NCBI GenBank assembly: GCA_963921795.1 | Contig: OY997657.1 | Span: 26,566,581-26,630,580 of the forward strand | Length of the DNA stretch: 64,000 bases | Direction of reading: 5' to 3' | Origin: Nannobrachium achirus | Taxonomy: Eukaryota; Chordata; Actinopteri; Myctophiformes; Myctophidae | Part shown: positions 9,297-64,000 of the stretch, in pieces | How the letters are laid out: every line of letters begins with the position of its first letter | Numbering within the stretch: position 1 is the stretch's first letter | Notes under the pieces: generated by a model | Databases searched by the model: none | What the model was told of the DNA's origin: nothing | What the model saw: only the letters and a program-made list of their open reading frames with translations | Translations under genes and position numbers: made by a program

Positions 9297-10142
9297 TTAA
9301 TGGCTACAGAGATACTGTGTACCGATCTGCATGATTTTTGGACAAAATCTGTAACAGGGCCAGACAACCTGGCCACCTGGCTTCTTCCTTTTCTGCACTG
9401 GTAACACTTTCTTTGGTCCTGTCTCTTGCATGGAGGAGATGCCCTGTCTCTTGAGATACTCCTCAATCTTCTCTTCGTCAATGGCATCAACTGGAACACT
9501 CCTCCACAGTTTCATCCACCACAAACTGGCAGTGTTTGTCATTGTAGAATAGGACTTTCTTCTTGTCTGGTCTGGTCTGGTCACAAAGATGATCTGATCC
9601 GCTAAAGCCTTAATGGCCTTGGCTGAATTGGGCAGACCCTCCTCCACATCATCCAGCAGGATTCCTCCCAGGCCCAACTGGTCGTGTTTGTCCAGCAGCC
9701 TCAGCAGGGACTTCTTGTCCTTCAGCTTGTATTTAGGCTTAAAGGCATACTTCCCATCCTGCACATCAATCTTTGGATTGTTGACCAAGGCCTCAGAAAT
9801 AAGCCACTGTTTCTGCTTCATCCCGATGTCCAACAGTTTGGTCTCATCCAGCATTTCCTCAAGGGTCAGGAAGTGTGTGTCCCCTCTCTGATGCCTGGTC
9901 TTCATGTAGTTGACGATCTTGGCCAGGCAACCAAACTTGTAGCCAGAGCTACCAGAGAGAGCCTTCAGACTGATGTTGCCATTACTTGAGTCAGCATTGT
10001 GTTTGGACCCTGAGGACCCTTCCTTGTCAACTTTGGCCTTCTTCTTGTGTGAGTCGGAGCCTGTAGGTCTCTTCTCTACAGCTGGAGTGGACAGAGCTCT
10101 CTTCTTGAAGAGCTCCCTCTCCTTCAGTAGAGCAGGATCCAT
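9297..10142 (-). pseudogene. gtf2e2: Processed retrocopy of gtf2e2 (TFIIE beta)
   Basis: An uninterrupted 281-codon frame matches general transcription factor IIE subunit 2 from its first residue ([20 protein letters not shown]). It continues through the winged-helix blocks ([46 protein letters not shown]) to [20 protein letters not shown]. The normal gene has several introns and this copy has none, so it arose by retroposition. Near 9560 a 5-bp tandem duplication (CCAGA) shifts the frame. An apparent 11-bp loss near 9520 restores it, leaving about 20 foreign residues. The last about 25 residues are not TFIIE: the copy stops after KKPGGQ and runs into a repeat also present near 21110 and 21530. 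The basic C-terminus is lost, so it is most likely non-functional although open. Confidence 0.85.
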
Positions 10143-10443
10143 CCTTTCTCTTGGACACTGGTCGACGGTTAACGGTTCAAACTGCTGCCCAAAGTCTCTG
10201 GAACAAGTTGTTTGGAAGAACAGAACAGCTGCAGTGAAACGATGGTGTCAAGTCGATGTGATGATGATGGATGATGATGTCAATGTTTGTATTTATATAT
10301 TTATATGATAATGTTTTATGAAAGATAAACTCAAATTCGTTGGTCACGCTGATAGCTAGGAAATTAAACCTTTAACTCTGAAACATTGTTTGAAAAGGAA
10401 AAGACGCCAGGCCAGATCTCAGGAGGGTAAAAAGTGTTCCTTG

Positions 10444-21900: not shown

Positions 21901-24900
21901 CCAAGTTTGGCTTCCAATGTTTGCAGGATTGGTCAGTTTTGAACAAAATGCCTCAAATCATGAACGCAGCTTTCGCGAATGTTTTACTTTCTAGTGTTTA
22001 GGGGGCTCCAGACCAGCAGGTCAAAAACAAACACACAGACAAATGCTCACAACTGCTTCCTATGTCTGTCTCTTGTCTCATAACAGATATCTAGACTTGA
22101 CTGTAAGGATGTGCTGGAGATCACATGCACCTTGGAGACAGAAGGGGAGGAGCATACAGCCTTCATTTTGTGTACCACTTTCCTGACACAACAGCTTCAG
22201 CAGCAAAGCCTTTACTGCTCCTGGTGTGTATAATACTCAGTCATAATAGTCATAATGGGTTTGTGGTCTGTGAAAGCAAGTCAATACATACAGTTTCTAT
22301 GTTTCCTCCATGTTTAAAAAGCCCTAATTTGTTGTATTATGATGCGGAGCTATACAACACTAGTTGCATGTGCTGTGTCGTGTGTGTGCCTAGGGTATTT
22401 ATTTTGTTTTATGACTTTCTCATTAATTCATTCTTTATCGTACCACTAATGTGATTTCCATTTGTTTAATGATAACAGTCCTAGTGCAAAATATAAATGA
22501 AAGCCTGAGTGATACTTTGTTGCACTTCAAGTGATCTCAACACACGCAACATGTTGTGAGCTTATTTTCAGTCCAAAATACCATCATACAACAATGTGTA
22601 AATCGAGCTTAAGCATGTCTGTGTTTTCATCTTGTCAAAAGGGAGTTGATACTGTTGTGGAGTAAGCTTCAGAGAAGTATTGACCCTTCCTTGGAATCTC
22701 TTTTGGAGCGGTGCCTTCAGCTAGGTGCCATTGCCAAAACGGTTGACCATCTGTTGTACCTGGTCCGAGTTATACGAACAGAGGTAAGAATATGAAACTG
22801 TTATTCCATTTTTATATTTTGGTTAAATTATGAAGCACCACCGACTCCTGGGTTATGTTGCAATTTCGGGTGCATCCACAATTCTTTTTTTCTTTTTTTT
22901 TTTTTTCACTTTATTTTTCTTTTTATTAAACAATATGTGGTGCATCCACAATTAAGTGTGTTTCTACAACCCTGGTCCAAACTTTACGCTTGATGTTATC
23001 TATTAACTAAGAAACACTATTCTAGTGTAATGAAATGAATAGGACTTGGTATTTAGTGTCCTGAGTGTAATGACCGTGATAACGGTATGACCATATATTT
23101 CAGTCGTAATAGTTGATGTCTTTGATGTCCGAACTGTTGCTGCCTATTAATATGGTGTCACTCTCTTTTCAGGCTGAATACCTGGGACTAGCATCATCAG
23201 TGGAGCTTTGTGTTAAAGCTCTCCAGCTGCCAAAGCAGAATGACTCTGATACGAGGATCTCTGTCTGCAAGACAGTTTGCGGCCTTCTTCCAGATGACCT
23301 TGAGGTGTTGCGTGCCTGTCAACTCACAGTATTCCTCCTTAGCCCTTGTCAAGAGGTCTTTGGCAGCCTTGAAGAACTGTACCTGCGCCCCGACCAGAAG
23401 TATGACCAGGAAAATGGGATTATCCCAAACTCGCTGCGCTGTGAGCTTCTTCTTGCTCTCAAAGCTTACTGGCCTTTTGACCCTGAATTCTGGGACTGGA
23501 AGACGTTGAAATATCATTGCATCTCCCTCCTAGGGCTGGTGCCTGAGTCAGAGGGAGAGGAGGAGGAGGAGGGTGGTGTGGAACGCTTGACAGGCGTTAA
23601 ACATGAGCTGCTGCAACAAAAACAGGAGATCGTAGAACCTGTGCATCAGAAGGAGTTATGTTATGATGACAACATGGATGTCAAAAATGAATCGTCTGAT
23701 AAGGCAGACCGTTTAGGTGTATCACATCAGACCAAGAAAATGAAGTTATACTGTAAGCTTTGCAAGAAGTTAGTTTCTGATAAGCAAATCATTTCCCATT
23801 CCAGAAGGCATGAAGAAAAATACAGCCACACATGCCCTGTCTGCCTGGACAGGTTTGTCAGCAGAAGGGAGCTCGTTCCTCACTTGAAACAACACATGCA
23901 GCATCCAGACAAGACTTCTAAAAGGAATGGAAAGCAAAAGAGAGATTTGCGTAAACATTTGGATGAGGATGACATTGAGCCAGGCGAGATCAACATTGAT
24001 CCCTCTCTTATGCTTTATTATAAGTCCACGCATGATCCCGATGTGCTGCAACACCTTGTTCAACAAACGAAAAATGTCCATTTGAAACAGGTGGATGATG
24101 ATGAGCATGTAACTTTTGATTACATTTACAGTCACTTTACCTTGCAGAACCGGGATGAATATCCATGCCCAGGCACTCACTGCACAAAGATCTTTAAACA
24201 TTCCAAGTACCTATCTATCCACTTGAAGTCGGAGCACAAGGAGGATGAGAATGTGAAACATTTTCTTGAAATGAAAGATAAACGGGAGAAGTGTGCATTT
24301 TGTAGACGCCATTTCATCTCCGCTTACCACCACCGCAAACATCGCAGAGAGCACGATAGTGATAAACCTTACACGTGTGTGGTTATAGGTTGTGGTGGTC
24401 AGTTTCACACTTCTACTGAACTTGTAACACATAAACAGGAACATGGCTATCAGCTGAACTACCAGTGTGAGCTCAAAGGCTGTTATGTTACTTTTTCTGA
24501 TTTGGGACAGATGTATCACCACGAAGCGCAGCATTTCCGAGATGCAGCATTTAGCTGCACTAGTCCAGGATGCAACCGGTTCTACTTATCCAAAAAAGAA
24601 TTCATCCACCATTTAGCCACACACAGCATTGTTTTCTCTGAAGATGACTTTGAGAAACAAAGAGCTAAACAGAAACTTCTTCAGTCAGTCACTGAGATGC
24701 CTAGCTCCAAGAAGTGTGCGGAATCTAAGACAGAGGAGTTGGTCAATGGTGTCAACCTAACCTCTTACTCAACCAGTTGTGCCTCCTCGTCGCATTCACC
24801 TAGCAGCAATGAGCCCAAGAGTATGATAACCTCAGTGGCTGTGTGTTTTGATGGAAGCAAGTTCACCTGTGGCTTTGAGAAGTGTGGCATGACCTTCTCC

Positions 24901-27900
24901 AGAGCCAGAGATGTCCAGAGACACCTGAAATGTGCCCACCCAGAGCACCTCAAGTTGGAGAACAAAGAACACAAACATGACAAAGAGCGAGGCTCAAAAT
25001 CCAAAAAGATAAAGGCGGAAACTGAGCTGAAAAGTGAGGAAAAGGTCAAATATGAGCTTGCAAATCCATTTCCATCCACTGAGGCCAGGAAAGAAAGAAA
25101 AGTAATCCCTCATCTCAGCCTCAATGAGACCAACACTTCAAACATTGCACACACTGATACTCTAAGGGAGATACTAACTGGACTCAGCAAATTGGACCTG
25201 AACTGTTCTACCGGTCACAATGGCCCATGTGAGCACTCTACCTCAGAGAATAATGTGTTACAAGACTCCCTCCACCAGGCAATCATGGCCAATTCCCCAG
25301 TTGTATTGCTTCCAAAGAAGCCTCCACATGTCGGTGAGGAGAGGGTGAACATAAAATCAGAGCAAGCATCAGAACTTGGCAAAATAAACCATGTTGAATT
25401 GCCCCATATTAAGCCATTTGTCTGTGAGTTTCCAGGCTGTGGCTTGAGTTACAATGATAAATGCAACTTAGCACGTCATTATACCAAAAAACATAGCCGC
25501 ACCAAGGAACAGGCCAAGGAGATGACTTCTTTTAAAAAAACTTCCTTTGCACCATTTGTGTGTCAAATCTGCACTAGGGCTCACACAACATTGCGTTGGT
25601 TGAAGGATCACTATATTAAAGTCCATAAACTTAACAAAGATACTGTGCGCATGGTAAACAATGTGTCTGTAAAGATTGAGGGAAGTAAAACCACAGAGCC
25701 TTCAATGCACAAATCTCCATCTTTAGCAAAAGATAGACATAAAGTGAAGAAAAGAGAGGTTCCAAGCCGGCAGCAGAGCTACAAAATAAGAAGGCCAAGT
25801 TTGAAGAGAAAAAATGGGGAAAACTCAGACAGTCCCTCTGTTGAGGAAGAAGAGGATGAAGCAGAGATGGGGGATGAAGAGCAGGGTAGTGGTGACAGTC
25901 CCTCTGTTGAGGAAGAAGAGGATGAAGCAGAGATGGGGGATGAAGAGCAGGGTAGTGGTGACAGCAGTGAGCAAAAAGGGGAAAATGAGGATGGAACTTC
26001 ATACCACCAGGGCAGAGCAACAAGACGGTTGGTATCTAAAGGCAATTTGTGTTATATATTATCCAAATTCAACAAGCCTTTCCATTGTGTAGTTAAGGAC
26101 TGTGTCGCTGCTTTCTCAAACCAGGGTGGGCTTGTCCGACACCTACAGAGTGTGCATCACTACAATCGCTCACAGCTCTTGCTGGAAAATGACTTGGATG
26201 TAAATCCCCCCTCTGAAGAAAGGAAGGACCCTGCAAAAAAGAGGTCTGTCTTACTCTCAGACGAACCTCAGCCCCAATACAAATGTCGCTTTGCCAACTG
26301 CAATGCGTCTTACCACCTGAAAAGCAGCTTGGTGCGCCACACTCGTGACAGTCACACTCGTAACTTAAATTGCCAGCCACCACAGTCGTTACGATGCAAG
26401 TATGAAGGTTGTATGCGAATGTTCCGTAATGCCAGTGCACTTAAGAAACATCATCGGTTTACCCATTGTGGATATGGATATGACTCACTTGTGTTGCGTC
26501 TGCAGAGCACTCACAAGAAGTCAATCAGTGGATGCCAAAAGAAGCTTATCGTTGAACCTGCTAGTGCCCAGAAAGAAGAACCTCCGTTAAATGGTCTCGA
26601 GTCTGAAAAGGATACCCATTCAGAGGTGACCTGTGAATCGGATGTTGAGGAAAAAGAAATTGTCCCACGTATAAAAAAGAAATCTAAAGGGAAACCCTAC
26701 GACAGTTTTATCTACCGATCACACGAGGAGGCATTACAGATGTGCCAAGATCGAAGTTATAAATACCCATGCATGGTTCAGGATTGTGAATCGGTTGTGA
26801 AGTACTTAAGAAGCATTCAACGTCACTACGAAAGTATTCACCTTATGCATAGGGGTGACATTTCCCGCCATGAGGACAAGCTTGTTTTCACTGCAGAACA
26901 GTTAGAGGAACTGATACAGAGGAAATCAGCACGGTCAACCTCCACTGCAGCATGCACACCCAATGGGGTTCGCAAAATGGAATATCAGGCAGAACCAGAC
27001 AAACCAGGGGGACTACCCAAACCCATGAGCCTACATTCCATCAACACAGACACACTGGATAAGAATAACCATGAGCCATTGGGCTTCCCAGAGGAGGAGC
27101 CACCTCCTGTAGAGAGAAATAATGTCCTGGTTGGTGCTGATGACGTGTTATATGGTGAACCAAGCACTGGTGGGCACACTGAAGAACCTGCTGCCACCAC
27201 ACAAAATGGTTTGATCCGTGCAGAGCGACCAAGACGGCGGAAATCTAGAATGCCTCTTCCTGCTGTCACTGTTGATCTCTCGCCACCATCCTCACTACGC
27301 ATCACTATTGATGAGTGCTTCCAAGGAACATCGGTCAGCAAAGATGGCAGCAATGTGCCCAACCCACCGGTGCGCCAACCGCTGAAACGTAAAAATGACA
27401 TGCCTGAGCAACCCTCTAATCAGAAGGATGCCCAGCCTCACTGCCCCCCACCTCGTCCTTTTGACGTCCTTGCCACCTACAAGCCTATTGGCTTTGAGTC
27501 CTCTTTTCTTGAGTTCATACAAGGTCCTAAGGATAAAGAAATTACACCGCTTAAAATGCGAGACTCTTTCAGACGCAGTTCTGTCAAGGAGAACCAGCTG
27601 AGAATCTCTCTCAACCGCAGCAAACACACTCGGCCCCCTCCATTGAAGGCCCTTGCCATGACTGGGGATTTCACATCAGTTCAAAATCTGAAATCCATTT
27701 TGGACAAAGCCCTGGCCGGGTGTGGGGACCTGGCCATTAAGCAGCTTCAGTACCTCAGGCCTGTGGTGGTCCTCGAGAGACCACCACCACAGGAGGACAG
27801 ACCCGTGGAGAGACCCGTGGTTGTCATGGACAGACCCATGGTGAGACCCGTCGTGGTCTTGGAGAGACCCATCGTGGTCTTGGAGAGACCCGTGGTGGTC

Positions 27901-28050
27901 CTGGAGAGACCCGTGGTGGTCCTGGAGAGACCTGTGGTGGTCCTGGAGAGATCTGTGGTGGTCCTTGAAAGACCTGTGTGCTCCTTGCCCGATCTCTTCC
28001 CTTCAGATACTAACGGTAGCAAACTACTTTATGGAAATGATTTACATTAG
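11693..28050 (+). CDS. rlf: RLF zinc-finger protein
   Basis: RLF (rearranged L-myc fusion) is a large nuclear C2H2 zinc-finger protein of the ZNF292/RLF family that acts as a chromatin and transcription regulator. Eight coding exons join in phase: 11693-11878, 16065-16219, 16603-16684, 17927-18062, 18675-18877, 22087-22223, 22642-22783 and 23173-28050, giving 1972 residues (human 1914). Residues 1-540 are the helical N-terminal region (for example LSCFELLLSV, WSKLQRSIDPSLESLLERC, PNSLRCELLLALKAYWPFDPEFWDWKTLK). About 13-15 C2H2 fingers spread from residue 540 to 1570. The C-terminus keeps KALAGCGDLAIKQLQYLRP and LFPSD. Two features are odd: a perfect 66-bp coding tandem duplication and a VVVLERP repeat expansion near the end. 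The start ATG lies in a GC-rich first exon (gaagATGgcgg). Introns are rich in repeats, and intron 1 is 4.2 kb. Confidence 0.96.
13184..13347. mobile_element. Short MITE in rlf intron 1
   Basis: Inverted ends ggtgctgaaacacactgccc and ggggcacagtgtttcacac enclose a second nested inverted pair (tatttggtgttttcac / gtgaaaacaccaaaata). No target duplication is evident. Confidence 0.6.
13691..13839. repeat. (TTG)n and (CA)n microsatellites
   Basis: A TTG run at 13691-13715 is followed by a CA run of about 65 bp at 13776-13839. Reading frames across it are artefacts of the repeat. Confidence 0.95.
14047..14240 (-). mobile_element. Probable tRNA-derived SINE fragment, inverted
   Basis: The segment 14150-14200 contains gggatcgggactctaaccc, the reverse complement of a B-box-like tRNA promoter element. 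It lies next to a purine-rich ggggggagaggggggcggg typical of fish SINE bodies. The boundaries are approximate. Confidence 0.5.
14904..15201. mobile_element. MITE with GGATTCAGACT ends
   Basis: Ends gggattcagactgggtcc and gggaccatagtctgaatccg are inverted repeats about 300 bp apart in rlf intron 1. No coding is seen. Confidence 0.6.
15390..15414. repeat. Poly-T/poly-G run
   Basis: About nine T are followed by about thirteen G. It is a simple repeat in rlf intron 1. Confidence 0.9.
15866..15950. repeat. (CA)n-(GCAC)n microsatellite
   Basis: CA, GCAC and GCGC dinucleotide runs lie about 110 bp upstream of rlf exon 2. The alternating purine-pyrimidine stretch could adopt Z-DNA. Confidence 0.95.
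18151..18630. mobile_element. hAT-type MITE with perfect 8-bp target duplication
   Basis: The element runs from CAGGGGTCTTCAACAGGGGG to GTTGACGACCCCTG. It is flanked by the perfect 8-bp repeat TTCTATCC (18143-18150, 18631-18638), the hAT hallmark. It contains the recurrent palindromic motif at 18281-18357. It lies in rlf intron 4, 44 bp upstream of exon 5 (18675). Confidence 0.9.
19053..19095. repeat. Perfect 17-bp hairpin in rlf intron 5
   Basis: CATGATTACTGCCTAAC pairs with GTTAGGCAGTAATCATG across a 9-nt loop, nested in a second repeat (aacatctgtt / aacagatgtt). No known RNA family is recognised. Confidence 0.6.
21050..22000. repeat. Dispersed repeat with internal duplication
   Basis: The phrase 'ttgtccaaaaaccacacaaa ... 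tcggtagacactatctc' (21113) returns in variants at about 21525 and 21820. 'gaacaaaatgcctcaaatc' occurs at about 21240 and 21940. The same repeat supplies the false C-terminus of the gtf2e2 retrocopy at 9297-9360. No coding is seen and the family is unnamed. It lies in rlf intron 5. Confidence 0.65.
25828..25959 (+). repeat. 66-bp perfect coding tandem duplication in rlf
   Basis: Two identical 66-bp units (25828-25893, 25894-25959) encode the acidic peptide DSPSVEEEEDEAEMGDEEQG plus SG twice. They lie between finger clusters, about residues 1233-1276. The in-frame identity suggests a recent duplication or a polymorphic site. Confidence 0.93.
27757..27978 (+). repeat. Coding minisatellite VVVLERP near rlf C-terminus
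   Basis: A 21-bp unit encoding RPVVVLE (variants RPVVVMD, RPIVVLE, RSVVVLE) is repeated about nine times from residue 1876 to about 1949. Human RLF has the motif once (YLRPVVVLER), so the conserved terminal motif itself has been multiplied in frame. Confidence 0.92.
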
Positions 28051-31481: not shown

Positions 31482-32966
31482 TTAGGTTAAAGGCCTGAGA
31501 GTCATGAACTGCTTGACCATGTCATCAGTCACTAGACTTCTTTTCTGTTTGTGTTTATTGATAATTGGCTGCAGGGTTTCAAAGAGAATCTTCTTCAACT
31601 CTCCTGTGAGCAGGGCTCCACGGGTATAGTCCTGTCTGTACTTCTCCAGCTGTTCATCGTCTTCTAGGAAGAAGGTCAGGTACATGAAGGACACATCAAC
31701 ATCTGGGTTACCACCAAGCTTCTTGTGTTCCTCCAACTTTTTCTTCCCTCCAGAGAACGCATGCTCCTTTATCTTCTTCTTGATCTCCTCGGGTGTGTCA
31801 GTGAGGAAAATAGAAGAGTTGGGGTGACTGGCGCTCATCTTTGTCTGAGCCCCCTGCAGGGCCGGAAAGAAGGTGGAGTGCAGCAAGGCTGGCTTTGTAT
31901 AGCCGTACTTTGGGGCTGCATCACGGGTCATTCTGAAATACGGGTCCTGATCTATGGCACAAGGGATGAGACATGGGACGTTCTTTCTGCCTCTGAAGAT
32001 CTGTGGGAAAGAGCTACTGAAGGATGGAGCTGCCTGAATGGCTGGGAAGCCAATCTTTCCTATGCACTCGCTCTCAAATTTAAAGCCAAAGATGCCTCTG
32101 ACTTGGTTGCATGTTACCACCTTTTGGATCTTCACCACGTTTGTATATAACTCCGGTGTCATATTGTTGAGGTTAGAGAAGATGAATGTCTTGTTGACGT
32201 CAAAGCCACAGGCGATGATGTCCTTGGCGTTCTCTACAGTGTAGTGCTGACATTTCTCCAGTGTCAGATCATCCTTCCACAGGTATTTCTCATCGTCCGT
32301 CATCTGGATGACCAGGGGGACTTCAAAGATATCCTGTAGCCATTTGGTGAAGATGAATGGGATGAGATGTCCAACATGCATGGCCTCTGATGAGGGTCCT
32401 CTGCCAGTGTAAATGTAGAAGCACTTGTCTTTCTCATATGCATCCAGCAGTTGATGCATATCTCTGTGGGAGAAAAAGACTCCTCTTCTTAGAAAGCGGT
32501 GTGGCCTCTGCCCTTTGACCTTGCAGATCTTCTCAAAACGGTCCAATAGCTCCTTGTCGATTCTTTTACTACCGAACTTCACTATGAGTTTGTCATAGTC
32601 AACCCCCTTGGCGCTGGTGGTAGACACATTCCATGGGTCAACTGTATCTTCTGTTGTATTCAACTTACAACAGAAGATACAGTTGACCCATGGAATGTGT
32701 CTAGAGACGTTTTTGACAAAGTTTTTGACAAAGTCGAGAGACGTTTTTGACAAAGTGTCTTTTGCTTTCAGTTGAATTCTCTCCTCCTTTGATTTCTTAC
32801 TCTCATCCTTGATGTCTTCCATCTTTGCTTCTTGCAAAGATATCTGGGTCGTAAGGCCAAATATCTTGGGAACTGAATGTAATTTGCTTGAGGTTGGAGA
32901 GTCCTTGAAGATCCGCGATATTCCTGAAGACTTGCTAGTGAGTTGGCGATTCTCTGAATCTACCAT
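31482..32966 (-). CDS. wars1: Intronless wars1 retrocopy, open frame
   Basis: Tryptophanyl-tRNA synthetase charges tRNA-Trp in the cytosol. The 494-codon frame matches WARS1 from about residue 105 ([20 protein letters not shown]) to the end ([11 protein letters not shown]). The class I signatures are intact: HVGH at 197-200 and KMSAS at 376-380. [34 protein letters not shown] and [14 protein letters not shown] are also present. The normal gene has about ten introns and this has none, so it is a retrocopy. It is unbroken over the catalytic region, which argues for selection or youth. The first about 104 residues are not WARS1 and lack the WHEP domain. They include a stretch made by a perfect 38-bp inverted repeat and short tandem repeats. 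Some normally conserved positions differ ([11 protein letters not shown] for SDLDYMG...FY). A TATAAAAG lies about 18 bp before the ATG, so a later start such as Met-49 is possible. Confidence 0.85.
32621..32703. repeat. Perfect 38-bp inverted repeat inside wars1 frame
   Basis: Arms 32621-32658 and 32666-32703 are exact reverse complements around a 7-bp loop. The arm nearer the 3' end of the gene is genuine WARS1 coding (VDPWNVST). The other arm is its inverted copy, read in frame as [11 protein letters not shown]. Confidence 0.95.
32704..32756. repeat. Short tandem repeats next to the inverted repeat
   Basis: gacgtttttgacaaag occurs twice with a partial unit between, encoding [13 protein letters not shown] in the retrocopy. 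It directly abuts the inverted repeat. Confidence 0.85.
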
Positions 32967-33124
32967 GGGAATGCGGACTGCTTTTATACCTGCAGTTTAA
33001 ATTTAGATTTGTTTTCTCAGATTACCATTACCACCATGGTCAAATTGTATAATGCTATATATTCTACACCTGTGCACGTTGCCACAGAATTTGGAAGTGT
33101 ACTTTTTGTACTGCCCAGTGCCCA

Positions 33125-41700: not shown

Positions 41701-42603
41701 TGGCTTCTGTCACCACTATTGAAATATATATTTGATACCACTATTGATATACAGTTGTGCTCGAAATGATTCAACCCCCTCTGAAAAATGTGTTCATTAG
41801 TGTAGCCACTGTTCCTTTGACTTAGAACTTGTGAACTATGCTCAAAGCTGTACTTTTTGGAACATTCAGTGTCTTTGCAATTGTTTTATATCCTTTTCCT
41901 TTTTTGTACAAAACAATAATCTCTTCTCTGAACTTTTCTGACCATTCCTTAGACTTGTTGACCATGTTTCTAACTGCTCTAAACACAGTCAACAAACGTC
42001 TAGTCAGGCCAAATTGCACATCTGATGCAACTATTTAAGCCCTTGATTAGTCGATTGCAGTTGATTTACAGATGTTTTCAGGTGTAATTAAGAGTTGAAT
42101 AATTGAAAGTGAAAGTGGCGTTGAAAGTGGCATTTAGCAATGAATTTGGGGGGGGGGGGGGGCACAACAAATGTTACTTTTGTTGAGCTATTTACATTGT
42201 TCTTGTATGATTTATTTACTTCATTCAGTTGTCAGTTTGTGAATTTAGCCAATAAACCAGATTTGCAGAGGGGGGTTGAATCATTTTGAGCACAACCGTA
42301 TCCGTATATATATATTTATGTATACATACTGTATACATATTGTTGCTCGTAGTTAATTGTCATCATTTTCCTTTGCAGCTGTTGTCATTTTGTCTGACAG
42401 TCCTAAGCCGCAGATTTGAGTTCCAGGCAGATGCTTTTGCACGAGCTATGGGCAAAGCTTCTGAGCTCTATTCTGCCCTCATCAAGCTCAACAAGGACAA
42501 CTTGGGGTTCCCTGTGGCTGACTGGTTGTTTTCCATGTGGCACTATTCCCACCCTCCTCTCCTGGAACGCCTCAGAGCACTGGGCAATGTCAAGCAGGAC
42601 TGA
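35472..42603 (+). CDS. zmpste24: ZMPSTE24 CAAX prenyl protease 1 (FACE-1)
   Basis: This is a zinc metalloprotease in the ER and inner nuclear membranes. It cleaves the farnesylated CAAX end of prelamin A and makes its final maturation cut. Nine coding exons join in phase: 35472-35579, 36175-36321, 36834-37037, 39359-39511, 39998-40139, 40499-40674, 41153-41257, 41479-41622 and 42379-42603, giving 467 residues (human 475). The HELGH zinc motif is at residues 327-331 (41201-41215). The third ligand Glu is in [12 protein letters not shown], residue 407. Several membrane segments are visible, for example [12 protein letters not shown] and [12 protein letters not shown]. The protein opens [20 protein letters not shown], shorter than in mammals. 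It is the next gene after rlf apart from the wars1 retrocopy, the same order as in mammals. Confidence 0.97.
36359..36754. mobile_element. hAT-type MITE TAGGGCTGTCAC in zmpste24 intron 2
   Basis: Ends TAGGGCTGTCACAATTAT and ATAATTGTGACAGCCCTA are flanked by atctacag and atctacaa, an 8-bp target duplication with one change. The middle (36577-36636) holds the best copy of the recurrent palindromic motif, ending in gtagatctgctatttcc. Confidence 0.9.
37104..37335. repeat. GC-rich unclassified segment
   Basis: This G/C-rich block contains repeated ccgggg/cccgg words within an otherwise AT-rich intron (zmpste24 intron 3). It is probably the body of an old repeat, but no ends were identified. Confidence 0.35.
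37860..38045. repeat. Two direct copies with recurrent motif
   Basis: A unit with gcgctgaaaacagcaaatct, then acaagctcacag, occurs at 37887 and again at 38000, spaced about 113 bp. It carries the recurrent motif found elsewhere in MITEs. Confidence 0.75.
38703..38733. repeat. Poly-C run of 31 bases
   Basis: An uninterrupted homopolymer of about 31 C lies in zmpste24 intron 3. Its exact length is doubtful because such runs are hard to sequence. Confidence 0.9.
41752..42298 (-). mobile_element. Tc1/mariner remnant in zmpste24 intron 8
   Basis: The ends are inverted repeats (cagttgtgctcgaaatgatt and the matching aatcattttgagcacaac) flanked by TA. The minus strand at 42019-41822 keeps the transposase N-terminal helix-turn-helix, with [20 protein letters not shown] and [15 protein letters not shown]. 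The DDE catalytic part is absent, so this is a deleted non-autonomous copy of about 550 bp. Confidence 0.9.
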
Positions 42604-55191: not shown

Positions 55192-56160
55192 AAATGTATT
55201 TACCCCATTGATTCTGAATGGGGACCCAAATGCAAGGCCCTAGATGGGGACCCAAATGCATTTTGGTGAGAATCAATAGGGGTAAATTTACATGACCCTA
55301 AATTACCCCCATTGTTTCTGACCCAAATGCATTTGGGTCCCCATACAGGGCCTTATTTGGATCCCCATTCAGGGCCATGCATTTGGGTCCCCATCCAGAG
55401 TCACTGTGGGTAAATTTACTATTTACTAAAATCCCAGCATTTTTTGCTAGGGGCCAAATTCTAAATGGCGACCGGCGCCATCTCTAAAAATGTACTTTTG
55501 ATCCAGAATCAACCTAGAATCATGTATGAAGACACTTTTTCATTCAAGTCAACCATTGTAATCATAAGACCTCGTTTAATAGACATAGTGCAATGTTTAA
55601 TTAGCATATATTATGCGTATGTAACTCAAAGCAAACACGTGGTCATTTTCGGTTCTGTGTTATTCCAAGTAGGCCTACTTATTTTTACAAATATTCCTGT
55701 AGCCTACATCTGACTGACCACTACTGCTGAAGCAGTTAATATTAAAAGAAAGTGCTCTTTGTTCATGTAATAATAATAAGTTAGTATGTCCATGAAAAAA
55801 TGTTTCTGTATTATGACTAAGATGTTTGGGAAACAATATGGTCACATACCAAACTTTTCACTGTTGATCCCAAGGTAATTTGTCCTGTAGAATCAATTTC
55901 TAATTGTTTGTACTGTGCATATTTAATTAGGCCTAGATAACTTTTGAGCAAATTAGTCTAAATAAACATAATAAATTGTTTAGGCAGACCAATATAAGTG
56001 GTATTAGGGCACAAATAATTTCCCCAGGCTATGCGTGCCTATCCCTGTAACTCCCTGCCTATCCACAGGGTGGCGTTGGAGGGTAATTTTCTAAGACGTA
56101 TGATTTTAGGAAGTAAAGACGTCGTCATGTCCGCTGAACCCCTGCTATAATAAGGGCGAA
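54601..56160. other. Intergenic, repeats only
   Basis: It contains a (TA)n run at 55157-55187. An imperfect inverted repeat at about 55190-55425 is built on ggacccaaatgca / tgcatttgggtcc. No gene is recognised. Confidence 0.5.
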
Positions 56161-56449
56161 CCCCGCGTGAATCTTCCTCTATTCACATCATGGCAAGCCA
56201 CGACAATAAGGTGGGTCCTTTCGTGGCTGAACTGAAAGCCATTATCGATATACTACTACTAATTTACTTTCTCATCGCAGTTTTGCTTGACATGTCTCCC
56301 TGCAAGAATATTTAAGACTTGGATGTTATGTGTAGTTTAGACAGCTACTGTAGTGTTAACTGAGTAGAACCAACTCCATGACTAGAACTGCTTGTTAGCT
56401 GGCTAACGTTATCCATAAGGCCTGACCGCACCAATGCAAATATAGTCGC

Positions 56450-56850
56450 AAATGGTGGAAAAAGTAATATTACTGCAATGTAGAAATACTCTGCTACAGT
56501 GCTACAAGTATAAGTTCGAAATTCAAAATGTACTTGAGTAAAAGTATCATTCAAAATGTACCAAAAGTAGAAGGTACTCGTTATGCAGAATGTGCCATTT
56601 CACAAGATTTCCAATTAATGCAATTTATGAAAAACTGAAAATCCATAAAATATTCTGCTATTTTCAAGTGGCTGAAATGTGTATAGGGCAACTATAGTAC
56701 CTAAAGTTGTCATACAGTGGAGGTACAATATTTGCCTCTTGAGATGTAGTAGAGAAAGTATTGAATTGGAAATACTCAATTTAAGTACAAATACCTCACA
56801 ATTGTCCTAGTACTTAAGTAAATGTACTTGGTTACTTTGCACCACTGGCC
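56450..56850. mobile_element. hAT-like MITE in host-gene intron 1
   Basis: Its ends are atggtggaaaaagtaat and ggttactttgcaccactgg, and the body has repeated 'agtacttaagtaaatgtact' words. This is the common fish 'gcaaagtaaccaagtacatt' element. The ends are approximate. Confidence 0.7.
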
Positions 56851-57586
56851 AGTCCATGCACCAATGCAACTCCTTGCAACTGCCATGGGGGGTTAATTGC
56901 CTAGCCATAGATCACAAGACGGTCATCTCATTATGAGTCCTGTATCAGGGCTATCCTCTGGCCCAGTGTGGATTTTATGTAATGTGTACTGTGGTAACAT
57001 GTCCTTAGGTCGACCATGTATTGTGTGTACAGACCGCAGTGTACACTGACTTTAATGTATCTTTGGCATGTCTTACTTTTCAGCACATAGTGACGGGTGT
57101 CTTGTTTTGTGCATAATGCTGTCGGGTTGTGTTAAAGATGGCTCTGGTCCATAATTAGAAAGAACTAATGCCATGGCTAGATGGGCTAAAGATTCTGTAG
57201 ATGTGCATTCAAAGCTAAAAATTAAGTGTATTAAAGTGTATTGTAATTTAAGGAACATTCAGATTTTTATGTTGGTAAATGCTTTGCTGGCAACCATGTT
57301 CATCAATGAGTGGTATGTCTTTAAGTCTGACAAATGTGTCCTTATTCCATGTAGGTTCTGCTGCTTGATGGCAGACTATTTGGGCATCTTGCTCCTGTGG
57401 GCTGTGGCTAATCGGGGTACAGTGGGGTTTGCTACAAGTACCTGTCCAAAAGAGGATGAACACCAATCCCTGGTGTGGACCATAACACTTCATAGTGAAA
57501 TCTGCCAGAGGTGAGCTTGTAGATATCTAACCTGACTAACCACCTGATACATTTCCTAAACACACTTGCCGTATCTAAAATTGTCT

Positions 57587-57663
57587 GTCAGTGATTACAC
57601 TACTCGCCTTGGTTGAGTTTAACGACCATGAAAAAACCACATGCACTACCATCTGAGACTGAC
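57587..57663 (+). ncRNA. SNORD33-like C/D snoRNA, copy 1
   Basis: The C-like box is cagtgatta, then gaccatgaaaaaaccac and catgcactaccatCTGAgac, with the D box at 57653-57656. The guide atgcactaccat matches human U33 (18S U1326). It ends about 71 nt before the next exon, the normal C/D spacing. Confidence 0.85.
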
Positions 57664-57800
57664 TGTCATCAATAAATGTCAATGGTCTTTTTGTCTATAG
57701 ATCTTTATGTTATGCGTTTCTTCCCTCTCTATAGGCCACAGGGTGGAAGTGGTGAGATATGAGGGCATTAACCTCTTTGTAAACTTCTACCACAATCAAG

Positions 57801-57866
57801 GTCAGTATTATACTATTATTAACCATGAGAATATTTTACATGCACTACCATCTTGGGCATAAGCGT
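57801..57866 (+). ncRNA. Degenerate SNORD32/33-like copy 1
   Basis: gtcagtatta, aaccatgagaat and catgcactaccatcttgggc keep the guide, but the C and D boxes are lost. Probably inactive. Confidence 0.5.
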
Positions 57867-57964
57867 TGCATTCTTAACAAATGCCAATGTTCTGGTCTTA
57901 ACCCTTATAAATTATCTTATCATACCCAAATGGGTATCGCAATCATGACGATTGTCGCTTGCTT

Positions 57965-58041
57965 GACAATGATGAGTCTATCCCGAAACTGATCATCTAT
58001 TGATGAAAAATTACTATCGGATCTGACTACTGAGTTGAGTC
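57965..58041 (+). ncRNA. SNORD50-like C/D snoRNA, copy 1
   Basis: C box aatgatgag, D' CTGA (57989-57992), C' tgatgaa and D CTGA (58030-58033) are all present. Guides tatcccgaaa and atcggatctgacta are complementary to neighbouring 28S sequence, as in U50. Confidence 0.85.
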
Positions 58042-58297
58042 GGACACAATCTTGGCCATACATTTTCATAATAATCATCAACATTTATCCTTTTGGATTT
58101 GTCTTTAAGTGGATTTTCTTTCCTTGTGAGGTTTTGACTTGGCTAATGTTTCCTTTCTTGCCTTCAGACCAGGTACTTTATGCTCCCTCAGAAAATGAAG
58201 TGAGGACAGGCTGGACTAGACAGAATGAAGGTCATCCATGGTGTTCCTCCTCTGTATGACAAGGTGACTTTATCTTCAAATTGTCTGCTGTATCGTT

Positions 58298-58374
58298 TGT
58301 CAATGATTACACTACTCGCCTTGGTTGAGTTTAACGACCATGAAAAAACCACATGCACTACCATCTGAGACTAA
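58298..58374 (+). ncRNA. SNORD33-like C/D snoRNA, copy 2
   Basis: Same boxes and guide as copy 1, with D box CTGA at 58365-58368. It ends 71 nt before the exon at 58445. Confidence 0.85.
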
Positions 58375-58510
58375 CTGTGATCAATAAGTGTCAATCGTCT
58401 TTTTGTCTATAGATCTTTATTTTATGCGTTTCTTCCCTCTATAGGCCACAGGGTGGTAGTGGTGAGATATGAGGGCATTAACCTCTTTGTAAACTTCTAC
58501 CACAATCAAG

Positions 58511-58576
58511 GTCAGTATTATACTATTATTAACCATGAGAATATTTTACATGCACTACCATCTGGGGCATAAGCGT
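58511..58576 (+). ncRNA. Degenerate SNORD32/33-like copy 2
   Basis: The guide catgcactaccatct is kept. The D box is changed (CTGG) and there is no C box. Probably inactive. Confidence 0.5.
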
Positions 58577-58676
58577 TGGTTGCATTATTAACAAATGTCA
58601 ATGTTCTGGTCTTAACCCTTATAATTTATCTAACATACCCAAATGGGTATCGCAATCATGGCGATTGTCGCTTGCT

Positions 58677-58755
58677 TGACAATGATGAGTCTATCCCGAA
58701 ACTGATCATCTATTGATGATAAATTACTATCGGATCTGACTACTGAGTCGAGTCA
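58677..58755 (+). ncRNA. SNORD50-like C/D snoRNA, copy 2
   Basis: C box aatgatgag at 58681, D' CTGA, C' tgatgat and D CTGA at 58743-58746. Both guides match copy 1. Confidence 0.84.
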
Positions 58756-58997
58756 GACACAATCTTGGCCATACATTTTCATAATAATCATCACAACATT
58801 TATCCTTTTGGATTTTCTTTCCTTGTGAGGTTTTGACTAAGCTAATGTTTCCTTTCTTGCCTTCAAACCAGGTACTTGTATGCTCCCTCACAAAAGGAAG
58901 TGAGGGCAGGCTGGACTGGACAGAATGAATGTCCTCCATGGTGTTCCTCCTCTGTATGACAAGGTGACTTTATCTTCAAATTGTCTGCTGTATCGTT

Positions 58998-59078
58998 TGT
59001 CAATGATTACACTACTCGCCTTGGTTGAGTTTAACGACCATGAAAAAACCACATGCACTACCATCTGAGACTGGCTGT
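58998..59078 (+). ncRNA. SNORD33-like C/D snoRNA, copy 3
   Basis: Same boxes and guide as copy 2, with D box CTGA at 59065-59068. It lies about 70 nt before the exon at 59146. Confidence 0.85.
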
Positions 59079-59211
59079 CATCATAAGTGTCAATGGTCTT
59101 TTTGTCTATAGATCTTTATTTTATGCGTTTCTTCCCTCCCTATAGGCCACAGGGTGGTAGTGGTGAGATATGAGGGCATTAACCTCTCTGTAAACTTCTA
59201 CCACAATCAAG

Positions 59212-59275
59212 GTCAGTATTATACTATTAACCATGAGAATATTTTACATGCACTACAATCTAAGCCATAAGCGTT
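59212..59275 (+). ncRNA. Degenerate SNORD32/33-like copy 3
   Basis: catgcactacaatctaagcc keeps a changed guide and has no D box. Probably inactive. Confidence 0.45.
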
Positions 59276-59368
59276 GCATTCTTAACAAATGCCAATATTC
59301 TGGTCTTAACCCTTATAATTTATCTTATACTCAAATGGGTATCGCAATCATGGGGATTGTCGCTTGCT

Positions 59369-59447
59369 TGACAATGATGAGTTTATCCCGAAACTGATCA
59401 TCTATTGATGAAAAATTACTATCGGATCTGACTACTGAGTTGAGTCA
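59369..59447 (+). ncRNA. SNORD50-like C/D snoRNA, copy 3
   Basis: C box aatgatgag (59373), D' CTGA, C' tgatgaa and D CTGA (59435-59438). The D' guide tttatcccgaaa matches the 28S target at least as well as in copies 1-2. Confidence 0.85.
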
Positions 59448-59687
59448 GACACAATCTTGGCCATACATTTTAATAATAATCATCACAACATTTATCCTTT
59501 TGGTTTTCTTTCCTTGTGAAGTTTTGACTAAGCTAATGTTTCCTTTCTTGCCTTCAAACCAGGTACTGTATGCTCCCTCACAAAAGGAAGTGAGGGTAGG
59601 CTGGACTGGACAGAATGAATGTCCTCTATGGTGTTCCTCCTCTGTATGACAAGGTGACTTTATCTTCAAATTGTCTGCTGTATCGTT

Positions 59688-59765
59688 TGTCAATGATTAC
59701 ACTACTCGCCTTGGTTGAGTTTAACGACCATGAAAAAACTCTCATGCACTACCATCTGAGACTGA
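59688..59765 (+). ncRNA. SNORD33-like C/D snoRNA, copy 4
   Basis: D box CTGA lies at 59756-59759. The guide edge differs slightly (actctcatgcactaccat). It ends about 69 nt before the exon at 59834. Confidence 0.82.
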
Positions 59766-59921
59766 CTGTCATCAATAAGTGTCAAATGTTTTTCTTATCA
59801 TGATTTTAAGGCATTTTTGTTCCCTCCCTACAGGCCACAAGGTGGTAGTGGTGAGCTGTGAGGGAATTAACATCTCTGGAAACTTCTACTGCAATAAATG
59901 TCAGTATTATTGCATTCAAAT

Positions 59922-59998
59922 ACTATAGGATGAATCTTGTGTGACCTGCTTACTTAAGTTAACCATGAGAATACTTGCATGCGCTACCATCTGAGGCA
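59922..59998 (+). ncRNA. SNORD32/33-like copy 4, boxes kept
   Basis: Unlike its three relatives, this copy has a C-like box aggatgaat (about 59928) and a D box CTGA (59991-59994), with guide catgcgctaccat. It may be the least decayed of the set. Confidence 0.5.
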
Positions 59999-60119
59999 TA
60001 AGGTTGAATGTGTTAAATAACATAAGGAGGTATGAACCTCTTTTAGTAGACTACCCTTTATATTATTTTTTAAGACTTGACCATTATGGGTATTATGGCC
60101 ACGACGATTGTTCCTTTGC

Positions 60120-60199
60120 TTAACAGTGATGAGTCCTTTATCCCGAAACTGAACCCATTGATGAGAAAAACTTACGGATCTGACTACTGAGTTGAGTCA
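60120..60199 (+). ncRNA. SNORD50-like C/D snoRNA, copy 4
   Basis: C box agtgatgag, D' CTGA (60149-60152), C' tgatgag and D CTGA (60187-60190). The second guide ttacggatctgacta is perfect for 28S auccguaa. Confidence 0.86.
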
Positions 60200-60413
60200 T
60201 GGACACAATCTTGGCCAATAGATATTTTCATAATCTTTGCAACACTTAACCTATTGCATCTATGATGTTTAAGGAAATATTTTAATGTTTCATTTCTTCG
60301 CCTTAAATCCAGGTATGCTGACAGGCTGCACTGGACAGACTGACGGTGTTGATGGTGTCGCCCCTCCATACAAGGTAATTTTAATCAACCAAGAGTGCTT
60401 TATTTAAACCTGT

Positions 60414-60496
60414 GCTGTCTGTGATGTAAATTTTCTTATCCTTACCATGCCTTGTTTGAGTCTTGACTCTGAAACGATACACTACTCTGAGACATG
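60414..60496 (+). ncRNA. SNORD34-like C/D snoRNA, copy 1
   Basis: ctgtctgtgatgtaaa starts it and CTGA (60487-60490) closes it, with ccttgtttgagtct inside. It lies about 62 nt before the exon at 60558, as in rpl13a genes. The guide differs from human U34. Confidence 0.72.
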
Positions 60497-60948
60497 CGAT
60501 TTGCTCTCAAGAGTATCTGCTGTTGGCCACTGTATCTAATGTTTTCCTCTTTCACAGAGGTATGGTCATCCCAGCTGCAAATTGTGCTCTTCAAGCCTCA
60601 CTTGCAAGGTGAGCCAAAACAAAATGCAACTTCCAATTCATGTCAGATGAGTGAGCTCTTGTCACAGCATATCACTTCTGTAGCCAGAAAGGTTTAAACA
60701 AATCCTTTCACTTGTTTTTTGTGAGTTTTTTTTTTTTACATTTAGATCTCATTAGTTTGGGATACTTTTAAGTAGTGTAAATGTTTTGTTAAAGCTGAGA
60801 CTATTTGACCTAAGAAATAGAAATAAAATAAAATTGGTTGCATGCATGGCTGTGATGTATGGAATGTTAATTTGGTAATGAAGCAATGCTTCTTTGCAGT
60901 GTACCCCCATGGTTATTGCCGAAAGGTCATTGTGACTATTGTCCTTGC

Positions 60949-61034
60949 TTAACAGTGATGAGTCCTTTATCCCAAAACTGATAAATCTATTGATGAAAAA
61001 AAATTACGGATCTGACTACTGAGTTGAGTCATGG
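60949..61034 (+). ncRNA. SNORD50-like C/D snoRNA, copy 5
   Basis: C box agtgatgag and D CTGA (61019-61022) are present. The D' guide reads cccaaaa, one change from the other copies, which should weaken that target. Confidence 0.78.
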
Positions 61035-61248
61035 ACAAATATGATATTTTCATATTCTTTTCAGCACTTATCCTATTGCGTTTGAAGGTAATATTTATTT
61101 GTGACCCGAGTTTTTGATATTTACCATCTTCACATTCAATCCACAGGCTGCACTGGACAGACTGAAGGTCTGCAGGCCACCCTCCATATGACAGGTGACT
61201 TAAATTTTCCAACCAGGAAGGACCAAGGGTGTTCTATTTAAACCTGTG

Positions 61249-61326
61249 CTGTCTGTGATGCAACTTTTTATCCTTACCATGCCTTGTTTGAGTTTTGACT
61301 CTGAAACGATACACTTATCTGAGACA
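61249..61326 (+). ncRNA. SNORD34-like C/D snoRNA, copy 2
   Basis: ctgtgatgcaac, cttaccatgccttgtttga and a D box CTGA at 61319-61322. It lies about 64 nt before the exon at 61390. Confidence 0.72.
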
Positions 61327-61734
61327 TGCTATTTGCTGTCAAGAGTATCTGCTGTTGGCCACTGTATCTAATATTTTCCTCTTTCACAGAGAAAACGTGC
61401 TGTGTGGATATCCCTACTGCCGATTGTGCACCTGAAGCCCACTTGCAAGGTGAGTTTAAGGGTGCGTATTGATTAGCCGTATGATAATTCTGGGATGGTT
61501 TACCAGGCTAGGTACTGATAACAAAATACAACTTCATGTATCACATGAGTGAGCGCTTTACTGCATATCACTCTGCCAGAAAAGTTTAGAAACGACTCCT
61601 TTCGTGTGGTAACTAAAAATGTTTCGATTTGGATACTTTTCATTGGTGTAAATGTTGTTGCTGCCGAGACCTTTTGTTCTAACGATACGCCTAAAATGGG
61701 TGTGTGGACCTATGGTCATGACGATTGTCCTTGC

Positions 61735-61818
61735 TTAACAGTGATGAGTCCTTTATCCCGGAACTGATAAATCTATTGATGATAAAAACTTACGGATCTG
61801 ACTACCGAGTTGAGTCAT
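61735..61818 (+). ncRNA. SNORD50-like copy 6, D box changed
   Basis: C box agtgatgag is present, but the usual D box reads CCGA (61805-61808) and the D' guide reads cccggaa. It is probably weakened. Confidence 0.6.
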
Positions 61819-62549
61819 GGACACATTTGATATTTTTGTATAGAGGTTTGAAGGCAATATTTATTTGAGTAGAGTTTAATATTTGCCATGTATCTAATGT
61901 TTGTCTTCCACATAGGAAACACATGGCCATCCCAGCTGCCTTCAAGATTTGTTTGCCTGCTGCCTGAACAACATCTGAGCTGTCTATTGGTTTCACCATC
62001 TGGCACTAATCCCTTCTCCTCTCCTGCAACTGGTGCATATCGCTGTAGAGGGAGAGTGTCCAGCCCGGATATTGTGCCGCTCACGGTGGCCAACTCCTAT
62101 CAGCAGTTATGACATCACCTACGGTGATGGAAAGCATCTGAGCAGTCGTTTGGCCTGCATGACTGTGGACTACATCCTGTGTCACAGCTTCCAGGCCTTC
62201 CATTCCTCCTTCACTGACACTAGCCTCCCCGCAAGGGCTGCCCTGTGATGAGCCTTCCATAATTATGGTTTATTTTACTTGGGAATGTATTAACTTGCAA
62301 CACGACTTCAAATGGGCAAACATAAAGTGAAAATGACTGAATATTCTGATTGAATGGCAGATACAGAAGTCTACAACGCCTTATGATGTTTTGGGGATGA
62401 ATAAGTAAACACCTGATAAAGGCCTAGGGCTGACACGTGGGTTGTATCCCTTTTACCATGTGCTGTTGTGCATTTATATAATATATCTAATAATAAAAGC
62501 TTTAACTTCACCAGAGTTTATGTTTTATGTGTTCCCCTGTTATTGTAAT

Positions 62550-63690: not shown

Positions 63691-63754
63691 TCATGTCCGC
63701 CGAACCCCTGCATTATACTGCGGGCGACCCCGTGCATCTTTCTTTTCGGACATC
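63690..63754 (+). promoter_or_regulatory. rpl13a promoter with 5' TOP
   Basis: cgtcatgtccgccgaacccc (63691) matches the block at 56125 upstream of the host gene. The pyrimidine run ctttcttttcgg just before catcATG fits a 5' TOP transcript start, typical of ribosomal protein genes. Confidence 0.7.
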
Positions 63755-63775
63755 ATGGCGGACCGGTTCAATAAG
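63755..63775 (+). CDS. rpl13a: Ribosomal protein L13a (uL13), first exon
   Basis: ATGGCGGACCGGTTCAATAA plus G encodes MADRFNK, the N-terminus of fish RPL13A, followed by a donor gtgtgtg. uL13 is a 60S ribosomal protein, and its gene usually hosts C/D snoRNAs. The remaining exons lie beyond the window. I take this as the functional gene because the upstream paralogue has lost its frame; that is inference. Confidence 0.78.
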
Positions 63776-64000
63776 GTGTGTGACTGCGGAGCAACTATAA
63801 TTCATATATTTGTGCCGCAGCTGGACATACATCTCTCCTTTATGGCTAAACTCAAAACGAGTACTATAATACGTCTCACTGTAGGCGCAGTTTTGCTCAA
63901 CGTGGTTCCTTTCGAGCATTTTCAAGCCGAGGATGTTCTGTGTTGGACAGCGTTGCGTTAACCGAGTACTGCCTGTATCATGGCAGCCCCCTAGCAAGCC

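Follow-up and report, generated by a model that had tools for sequence, protein, structure and literature searches.

We analyzed a 64-kb stretch of the Nannobrachium achirus genome (C20:26566581–26630580, the window), whose own positions are used below unless stated otherwise; all genome searches were made in the species' own assembly (1.66 Gb). A rearranged tandem duplicate of the ribosomal protein gene rpl13a occupies positions 56173–62501 on the plus strand and adjoins the intact parent rpl13a. We report here that this duplicate has quite probably lost its protein and been kept as a putative non-coding host for intronic box C/D small nucleolar RNAs (snoRNAs).

The intact parent gene

The parent rpl13a starts inside the window:

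63738..64000 (+): start of parent rpl13a; pyrimidine tract from 63738, ATG at 63755; continues in adjoining DNA (L004) to position 3312 there

It is intact, with 205 codons distributed over 63755–63775 and six exons in L004, and its introns end in GT-AG wherever looked at. Four of its introns carry a snoRNA: S32, a member of the SNORD32/33 family, in intron 2 (60 bits, Rfam); a second member of this family, SNORD33, in intron 3 (45.5 bits, Rfam); SNORD50 in intron 4 (57.6 bits, Rfam); and in intron 5 a C/D snoRNA that stays below every Rfam cut-off (snoR117, 28.5 bits; SNORD34, 21.4 bits). The closest full-length solved-structure relative of the parent protein is 7oya, from zebrafish.

Layout of the duplicate

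By blastn, 22 partly overlapping pieces of the parent map to 56051–61964 and cover most of the locus. The 5′ part begins with the promoter, exon 1, and the start of intron 1, followed by remnants of parental exons 2 and 4 fused as one exon. Two kinds of repeated unit follow: unit A, present four times, contains S32, exon 3, a SNORD33 remnant, SNORD50, and exon 5; unit B, present twice downstream of the A units, contains the intron-5 snoRNA, exon 6, and SNORD50, with a shortened exon 5 between. The locus ends in a terminal exon that starts as exon 6. The inferred gene has 14 exons and 13 introns:

56051..56189 (+): promoter and 5′ leader, aligned to parent 63613–63754; pyrimidine tract CTTCCTC at 56173–56179
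56173..56210 (+): exon 1, by parent homology, start inferred from the pyrimidine tract; ATG at 56190 (MASHDNK), GT at 56211
57355..57510 (+): exon 2, fused remnants of parental exons 2 and 4, by blastn and splice sites; stop TAA at 57409–57411
57735..57800 (+): exon-3-type exon, copy 1 (this and the next ten rows by parent alignment and splice sites)
58173..58263 (+): exon-5-type exon, copy 1
58445..58510 (+): exon-3-type exon, copy 2
58872..58963 (+): exon-5-type exon, copy 2
59146..59211 (+): exon-3-type exon, copy 3
59563..59653 (+): exon-5-type exon, copy 3
59834..59899 (+): exon-3-type exon, copy 4
60313..60374 (+): exon-5-type exon, shortened
60558..60608 (+): exon-6-type exon, copy 1
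61147..61194 (+): exon-5-type exon, shortened
61390..61449 (+): exon-6-type exon, copy 2
61916..62501 (+): terminal exon, exon-6-type start and then foreign sequence; AATAAA at 62492–62497, 3′ end inferred
62039..62226 (+): uqcrc1 retrocopy fragment in the terminal exon, by genome search (blastn); exon junction without intron

The uqcrc1-like piece matches two consecutive exons of a gene on C6 without the intervening intron (genome search, blastn), and it also matches an intronless copy on C10, which comparison with solved structures identifies as uqcrc1. The terminal exon thus holds a foreign retrocopy fragment, i.e., the 3′ end of the duplicate was pieced together with a retrocopy.

Repeats are spaced by about 712, 700, and 690 bp and then by 832 and 786 bp, with 752 bp between the third and the fourth SNORD50. 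The initial annotation had described four units of about 700 bp and then two of about 830 bp, and a functional-looking rpl13a downstream; the measured spacings agree with the former, and the latter is a complete 205-codon gene whose coding sequence starts at 63755 and continues into the next 3.3 kb. The same annotation's uniform exon lengths hold for exon 3 (66 nt in all four copies), but not for exon 5 (91, 92, 91, 62, and 48 nt) or exon 6 (51 and 60 nt).

With gaps uncounted, units A1–A3 are 95 to 97% identical to each other, A4 is 82 to 84% identical to A1–A3, and B1 is 84% identical to B2. Such a range (82–97%) indicates that the amplification was stepwise and makes an echo of assembly unlikely; together with the two unit layouts, it bears out the internal amplification originally proposed. 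That the tandem units are an assembly error, the objection raised at the outset, is hardly credible: outbred animals sometimes give assemblies with spurious tandem copies, and A1–A3 are close enough to suit this, yet A4 differs by 16 to 18% from A1–A3 and B1 by 16% from B2 (gaps uncounted), units across the array differ by 3 to 18%, and the A and B layouts differ in exon-snoRNA content.

Intronic snoRNAs

At Rfam gathering thresholds, the window contains 10 snoRNAs, all on the plus strand and all within 57584–61811: four of the SNORD33/32 family (RF00133, 56–60.8 bits, cut-off 44) and six SNORD50 (RF00278, 50.3–63.8 bits, cut-off 42). Two more C/D snoRNAs, found by alignment to the parent and by genome search, are copies of the parental intron-5 snoRNA and bring the total to 12. 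Each of 12 of the 13 introns has one snoRNA, close to the one per intron expected of a host gene; no snoRNA was found in intron 1.

57587..57660 (+): SNORD32/33-family (S32) copy 1, RF00133, 60.8 bits
58299..58372 (+): SNORD32/33-family copy 2, Rfam 59 bits
58999..59072 (+): SNORD32/33-family copy 3, Rfam 56 bits
59689..59763 (+): SNORD32/33-family copy 4, Rfam 57.4 bits
57964..58036 (+): SNORD50 copy 1, RF00278, 63.8 bits
58677..58749 (+): SNORD50 copy 2, Rfam 62.4 bits
59369..59441 (+): SNORD50 copy 3, Rfam 62.8 bits
60121..60193 (+): SNORD50 copy 4, Rfam 58.4 bits
60950..61025 (+): SNORD50 copy 5, Rfam 58.6 bits; one D′ guide change (alignment)
61736..61811 (+): SNORD50 copy 6, Rfam 50.3 bits; box D reads CCGA, D′ guide changed
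60418..60495 (+): intron-5-type C/D snoRNA copy 1, at the position of human SNORD34, by parent alignment and genome search
61252..61326 (+): intron-5-type C/D snoRNA copy 2, by parent alignment and genome search
57816..57855 (+): dead SNORD33 fragment, unit 1, 24.1 bits (cut-off 44); 5′ half absent, box D broken
58526..58565 (+): dead SNORD33 fragment, unit 2, 29.9 bits; 5′ half absent, box D broken
59225..59263 (+): dead SNORD33 fragment, unit 3, 24 bits; box D broken
59919..60000 (+): decayed SNORD33, unit 4, 27.8 bits (cut-off 44); CTGA kept, 5′ half mostly deleted or changed

The 12 intronic C/D snoRNAs counted in the initial annotation are therefore present (10 by Rfam and two by alignment to the parent), except that one SNORD50 has a broken box D. 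Box D (CTGA) is retained in 11 of the 12 snoRNAs and a RUGAU-like box C in all 12, with both boxes intact in five of the six SNORD50 copies; the sixth is probably decaying. The end of box C is off consensus in the S32 type (RUGAUUA) and in the intron-5 type (GUGAUGU, GUGAUGC), as in the parent, whereas the SNORD50 box C is UUGAUGA in the parent and AUGAUGA or GUGAUGA in the duplicate. We tried and rejected SNORD34 (RF00147) as a label for the intron-5 snoRNA, given that the parental sequence reaches 21.4 bits against a cut-off of 38 and the copies yield no RF00147 match up to E 5. A single SNORD34 match above the cut-off was seen in the genome (C15:35197645, 40.3 bits), outside rpl13a.

Loss of coding capacity

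Read from the first ATG (56190), the duplicate has an open frame of only 25 codons that ends in exon 2, and the exons are shuffled and frameshifted relative to the parent. Among the distinct substitutions in exons 3, 5, and 6 (n = 73, each distinct change counted once, with exons 1 and 2 of the duplicate outside the counts), 25 are synonymous, 46 nonsynonymous, and two create a stop; random substitution of the parent would give about 27, 70, and 3 percent, and synonymous changes are not significantly enriched (p 0.19). Coding of RPL13A by the duplicate is ruled out by the 25-codon frame, the frameshifts, and the neutral-looking substitutions. Introns retained in a gene with disrupted coding are what one sees in an unprocessed pseudogene, and the lack of a conserved long reading frame is equally a feature of SNHG/GAS5-type hosts.

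Promoter, splice sites, and snoRNA spacing

The pyrimidine tract and the promoter align with those of the parent, and a transcription start of the 5′ terminal oligopyrimidine (TOP) or TCT type is predicted at this tract. All 13 inferred introns are GT-AG. Inherited splice columns are changed in 0 of 18 cases, compared with 96 of 212 exon columns (p 6e-5, counts entered by hand); the exon-6 copy that became the terminal exon lost its 5′ splice site by rearrangement and is outside this count. Splice sites kept while exons drift are a trait of a host gene. The early closing of the frame, the coding exons riddled with changes (frameshifts, shuffling, and the exon columns just given), and the kept GT-AG sites had all been proposed initially and stand, with the correction that the frame runs for 25 codons instead of about 24; the TOP-like start also proposed there is a candidate, with tract and promoter aligned to those of the parent.

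The distance from the snoRNA to the 3′ splice site has been preserved, at 70–74 nt for S32 (parent 76), 104–136 nt for SNORD50 (parent 127), and 62–63 nt for the intron-5 type (parent 63). On the 5′ side, S32 and SNORD50 differ widely from the parent, and the intron-5 type is similar (43 and 57 nt; parent 53). Terminal stems of the six SNORD50 copies have energies of −10.1 to −15.5 kcal/mol, compared with −7.8 in the parent and −5.7 in a copy on C4, and 500 random sites of the locus gave a mean of −3.6 with a 5th percentile of −8.0 kcal/mol. As read from the printed stems, one G-U pair of the SNORD50 stem has become A-U in copies 4 to 6 and G-C in copy 2.

The snoRNAs have changed less than the exons

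In alignments of the copies to the parent, a parental column was counted as changed where any copy differs, deletions included; the stretches 56423–57335, 60614–60925, 61455–61714, and the terminal exon after 61964 do not align to the parent and are outside the alignment counts. S32 is changed in 3 of 74 columns (exon 3, 14 of 66), SNORD50 in 19 of 75 (exon 5, 54 of 86), and the intron-5 snoRNA in 6 of 76 (exon 6, 28 of 60). Pooled, 28 of 225 snoRNA columns are changed versus 96 of 212 exon columns (Fisher p 1.4e-14). Both snoRNAs and exons are expected to be constrained in the parent, so this contrast reflects the derivative.

In view of the shared ancestry and the unequal numbers of the copies compared, the test was repeated inside the locus without the parent. 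Between A1 and A4, S32 is changed in 2 of 74 columns and the rest in 103 of 569 (p 1.8e-4), or, with both snoRNAs taken together, 10 of 144 versus 95 of 499 (p 3e-4); between B1 and B2, the counts are 10 of 149 for snoRNAs and 52 of 330 for the rest (p 0.005). The parental SNORD33 serves as an internal negative control: its 5′ half is unaligned in units 1–3 and has 21 of 24 columns altered or missing in unit 4, its box D is broken in three of the four units, and it is dead in all four, which indicates that retention of the snoRNAs has been selective.

These counts bear on two other explanations. It is unlikely that the locus is an ordinary unprocessed pseudogene array, dead as a whole, in which the snoRNAs would seem preserved simply because too little time has passed since the units arose. 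The 95–97% identity of A1–A3, the one decaying SNORD50, and the dead SNORD33 remnants would suit such an array, but a pseudogene should have no part under constraint, whereas here snoRNAs change far less than the exons and introns beside them, which is equally seen when the old units are compared (A1 with A4, B1 with B2), and the splice dinucleotides are intact in 13 of 13 introns while exon columns have drifted. Very unlikely, in our view, is gene conversion from the parent, instead of selection, as the force keeping the snoRNAs alike. Conversion is possible given that parent and duplicate are adjacent and in the same orientation; nevertheless, the least-changed 74-nt window of unit A starts at parental 666–668, i.e., at S32, while the stretch from S32 to exon 3 is changed in 33 of 76 columns, and the SNORD50 copies share non-parental differences in two groups, which recent conversion from the parent would erase.

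The comparison with the parent sequence shows a locus derived from the neighboring rpl13a: it has no capacity to encode RPL13A, its promoter and splice sites are retained, and three of the parental snoRNA types have been selectively preserved and multiplied.

Guide targets

The guides were scanned against 1931 bases of one of the species' own ribosomal DNA (rDNA) copies, covering 18S up to its end, with 200 shuffled guides as a control. The best 18S site of the S32 D guide, GTGGTGGTGCATGG, scores 27, with 9 for the next site and a shuffled maximum of 23; we take this to be the U1326 target of SNORD33. Downstream of 5.8S, the rDNA on C8 and C551 consists of N, and two 28S sequence patterns gave 0 matches in the genome search.

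Comparison with known snoRNA hosts

GAS5 has a TOP start and one snoRNA per intron. The duplicate is apparently laid out like GAS5, SNHG1, and SNHG5 (U50HG), i.e., non-coding and multi-intron with intronic snoRNAs, and has the features looked for apart from the start site. The comparison with the parent favors the original proposal of a ribosomal protein gene duplicate that became a non-coding, SNHG/GAS5-like candidate host. It differs from these hosts in that its coding ancestor is recognizable exon by exon and lies intact next door.

Human and mouse RPL13A have snoRNA clusters (PMC4378963, PMC4234469), and parent and duplicate resemble human RPL13A, which hosts SNORD32A/33/34/35, in carrying SNORD32/33-family snoRNAs in homologous introns, but intron 4 here hosts SNORD50 and the intron-5 snoRNA is under the SNORD34 cut-off; human SNORD50 is hosted by the non-coding U50HG (PMC3753356). 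A chicken gas5-like host has no coding potential, 10 C/D snoRNAs, and a tandem snoRNA duplication (PMC2653536). Human RPL32P3, a ribosomal protein pseudogene, hosts SNORA7B in an intron (PMC6509762); it differs from the duplicate in that SNORA7B is an H/ACA snoRNA, and internal amplification is not mentioned in the accessible text. Tandem non-coding exons with intronic C/D snoRNAs are found in SNHG14, with its IPW-A exons and SNORD116 array (PMC9369261), an imprinted mammalian locus for which the accessible text mentions no ribosomal protein gene ancestry. Long non-coding RNAs (lncRNAs) from lost protein-coding genes (Hezroni 2017, PMC5577775) resemble the duplicate as non-coding RNA genes made from a degraded coding gene; there the coding gene is lost and the term snoRNA occurs 0 times in the accessible text, while here the coding gene persists. 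Extra C/D snoRNA copies are ordinary outside placental mammals, with four SNORD87 genes each in Xenopus and zebrafish (PMC3349704), although the copies here lie inside a degraded, rearranged ribosomal protein gene duplicate. Single features are each known: a ribosomal protein pseudogene hosting a snoRNA, repeated exon-snoRNA units, a gas5-like duplication, extra copies, and lncRNAs from coding genes. No degraded ribosomal protein gene duplicate that combines selective retention of snoRNAs with internal amplification was found among the entries listed from the open-access literature searched, nor did the accessible portions of PMC4792531 and PMC2246290 contain a precedent.

A candidate non-coding snoRNA host

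If the duplicate is a host gene, polymerase II would start at the pyrimidine (TOP/TCT-like) tract, the 13 introns would be spliced from the transcript, and each of the 12 debranched introns carrying a snoRNA would be trimmed to that snoRNA. The spliced exon RNA may be degraded by nonsense-mediated decay, because the stop of the 25-codon frame lies in exon 2 of 14; GAS5 exon RNA is degraded in the same way. The SNORD32/33-type RNAs would guide 18S methylation at the U1326-equivalent and SNORD50 would guide 28S sites. The three types would have risen to four, six, and two copies, compared with one each in the parent, by amplification that probably involved unequal crossovers among repeats in the introns.

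Several points weigh against this reading. The column test assumes independence, yet the copies share ancestry, and the copy numbers compared are unequal (six SNORD50 versus five exon 5; two intron-5 snoRNAs versus three exon 6, the latter inequality favoring a host gene); the tests within the locus reduce both problems only to a degree. In the spliced sequence, the longest ATG frame has 87 codons, a length within chance (shuffles: mean 67, 95th percentile 108), and may leave room for a small peptide. One SNORD50 is without box D, two carry altered D′ guides, and in copies 1–3 the border of the D guide deviates from the parental sequence. Among the random sites, one reached a stem of −13.9 kcal/mol, the minimum, and the stems of S32 (−5.5 to −7.6) and of the intron-5 type (−6.7 and −7.2) do not go beyond the random 5th percentile (−8.0), and neither do the similar stems of the parent (−7.7 and −7.4, respectively). 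In mouse Snhg14, 81 of 204 non-expressed snoRNAs shared a stem stability of −15.7 kcal/mol, few tissues having been covered, so good boxes and stems alone are no proof of expression (PMC10234308). The D guide of S32 copy 4 scores 31, but a shuffled guide reached 28, and for the guides of SNORD50, the intron-5 type, and S32 D′, no 18S site outscores the shuffled controls; this would fit 28S guides, which is no proof that they are.

A further step, that the duplicate is now the main supplier of these guide RNAs and relieves the parent, is put forward tentatively. Genome-wide counts are lower bounds taken from the best candidates only (for SNORD50, the best 64 of 160148 first-look candidates): at least six SNORD33/32-family matches, four in the duplicate and two in the parent; at least nine SNORD50 matches, six in the duplicate, one in the parent, and two changed copies on C4; and at least three intron-5-type matches, two in the duplicate and one in the parent. 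No SNHG5-type SNORD50 host was seen elsewhere in the genome among those best 64 of 160148 candidates. The weaker box C and stem of the parental SNORD50 would leave room for a derivative carrying better copies. If the duplicate is indeed the main supplier, the locus would show a non-coding host in the act of separating from a ribosomal protein gene, and its copy number might even now vary within the population.

How non-coding snoRNA hosts such as GAS5 arose is poorly documented. With parent and derivative side by side and units of different age, the order of events, i.e., coding loss, loss of one snoRNA, and amplification of the others, becomes readable and testable, and the locus separates selection on snoRNAs from selection on protein.

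Other rpl13a copies and neighboring genes

A faint SNORD50-like relic lies in parent intron 6 (L004:2565–2633; 20 bits, E 1.1) and is only suggestive; it is a possible partner of intron 4 in unequal crossing over. Directly downstream of the parent, a partial repeat of the last exon with its poly(A) signal was seen by eye (L004:3375–3466). Searching the genome with the RPL13A protein gave seven matches, six of which are exons of the parent or the duplicate; the sole match over all 152 query residues among the seven is an intronless rpl13a copy on C16. This retrocopy (C16:11940700; L006:5701–6318) has an intact 205-codon frame with 24 differences from the parent, 17 of them nonsynonymous, including several lysine to glutamate changes. 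The two C4 copies of rpl13a intron 4 with SNORD50 (C4:58428517 and C4:59369706) are related, lie amid rpl13a fragments and repeats, share 95% identity over 1467 bases, and have changes in box C and guide.

Elsewhere in the window, the following were noted:

9300..10247 (−): TFIIE beta
23113..28050 (+): rlf-like zinc finger protein
31485..32996 (−): uninterrupted 504-aa stop-to-stop frame with a tRNA-synt_1b domain, which we presume to be perhaps a retrocopy of a tryptophanyl-tRNA synthetase gene
42280..42603 (+): M48 peptidase exon, presumably zmpste24-like

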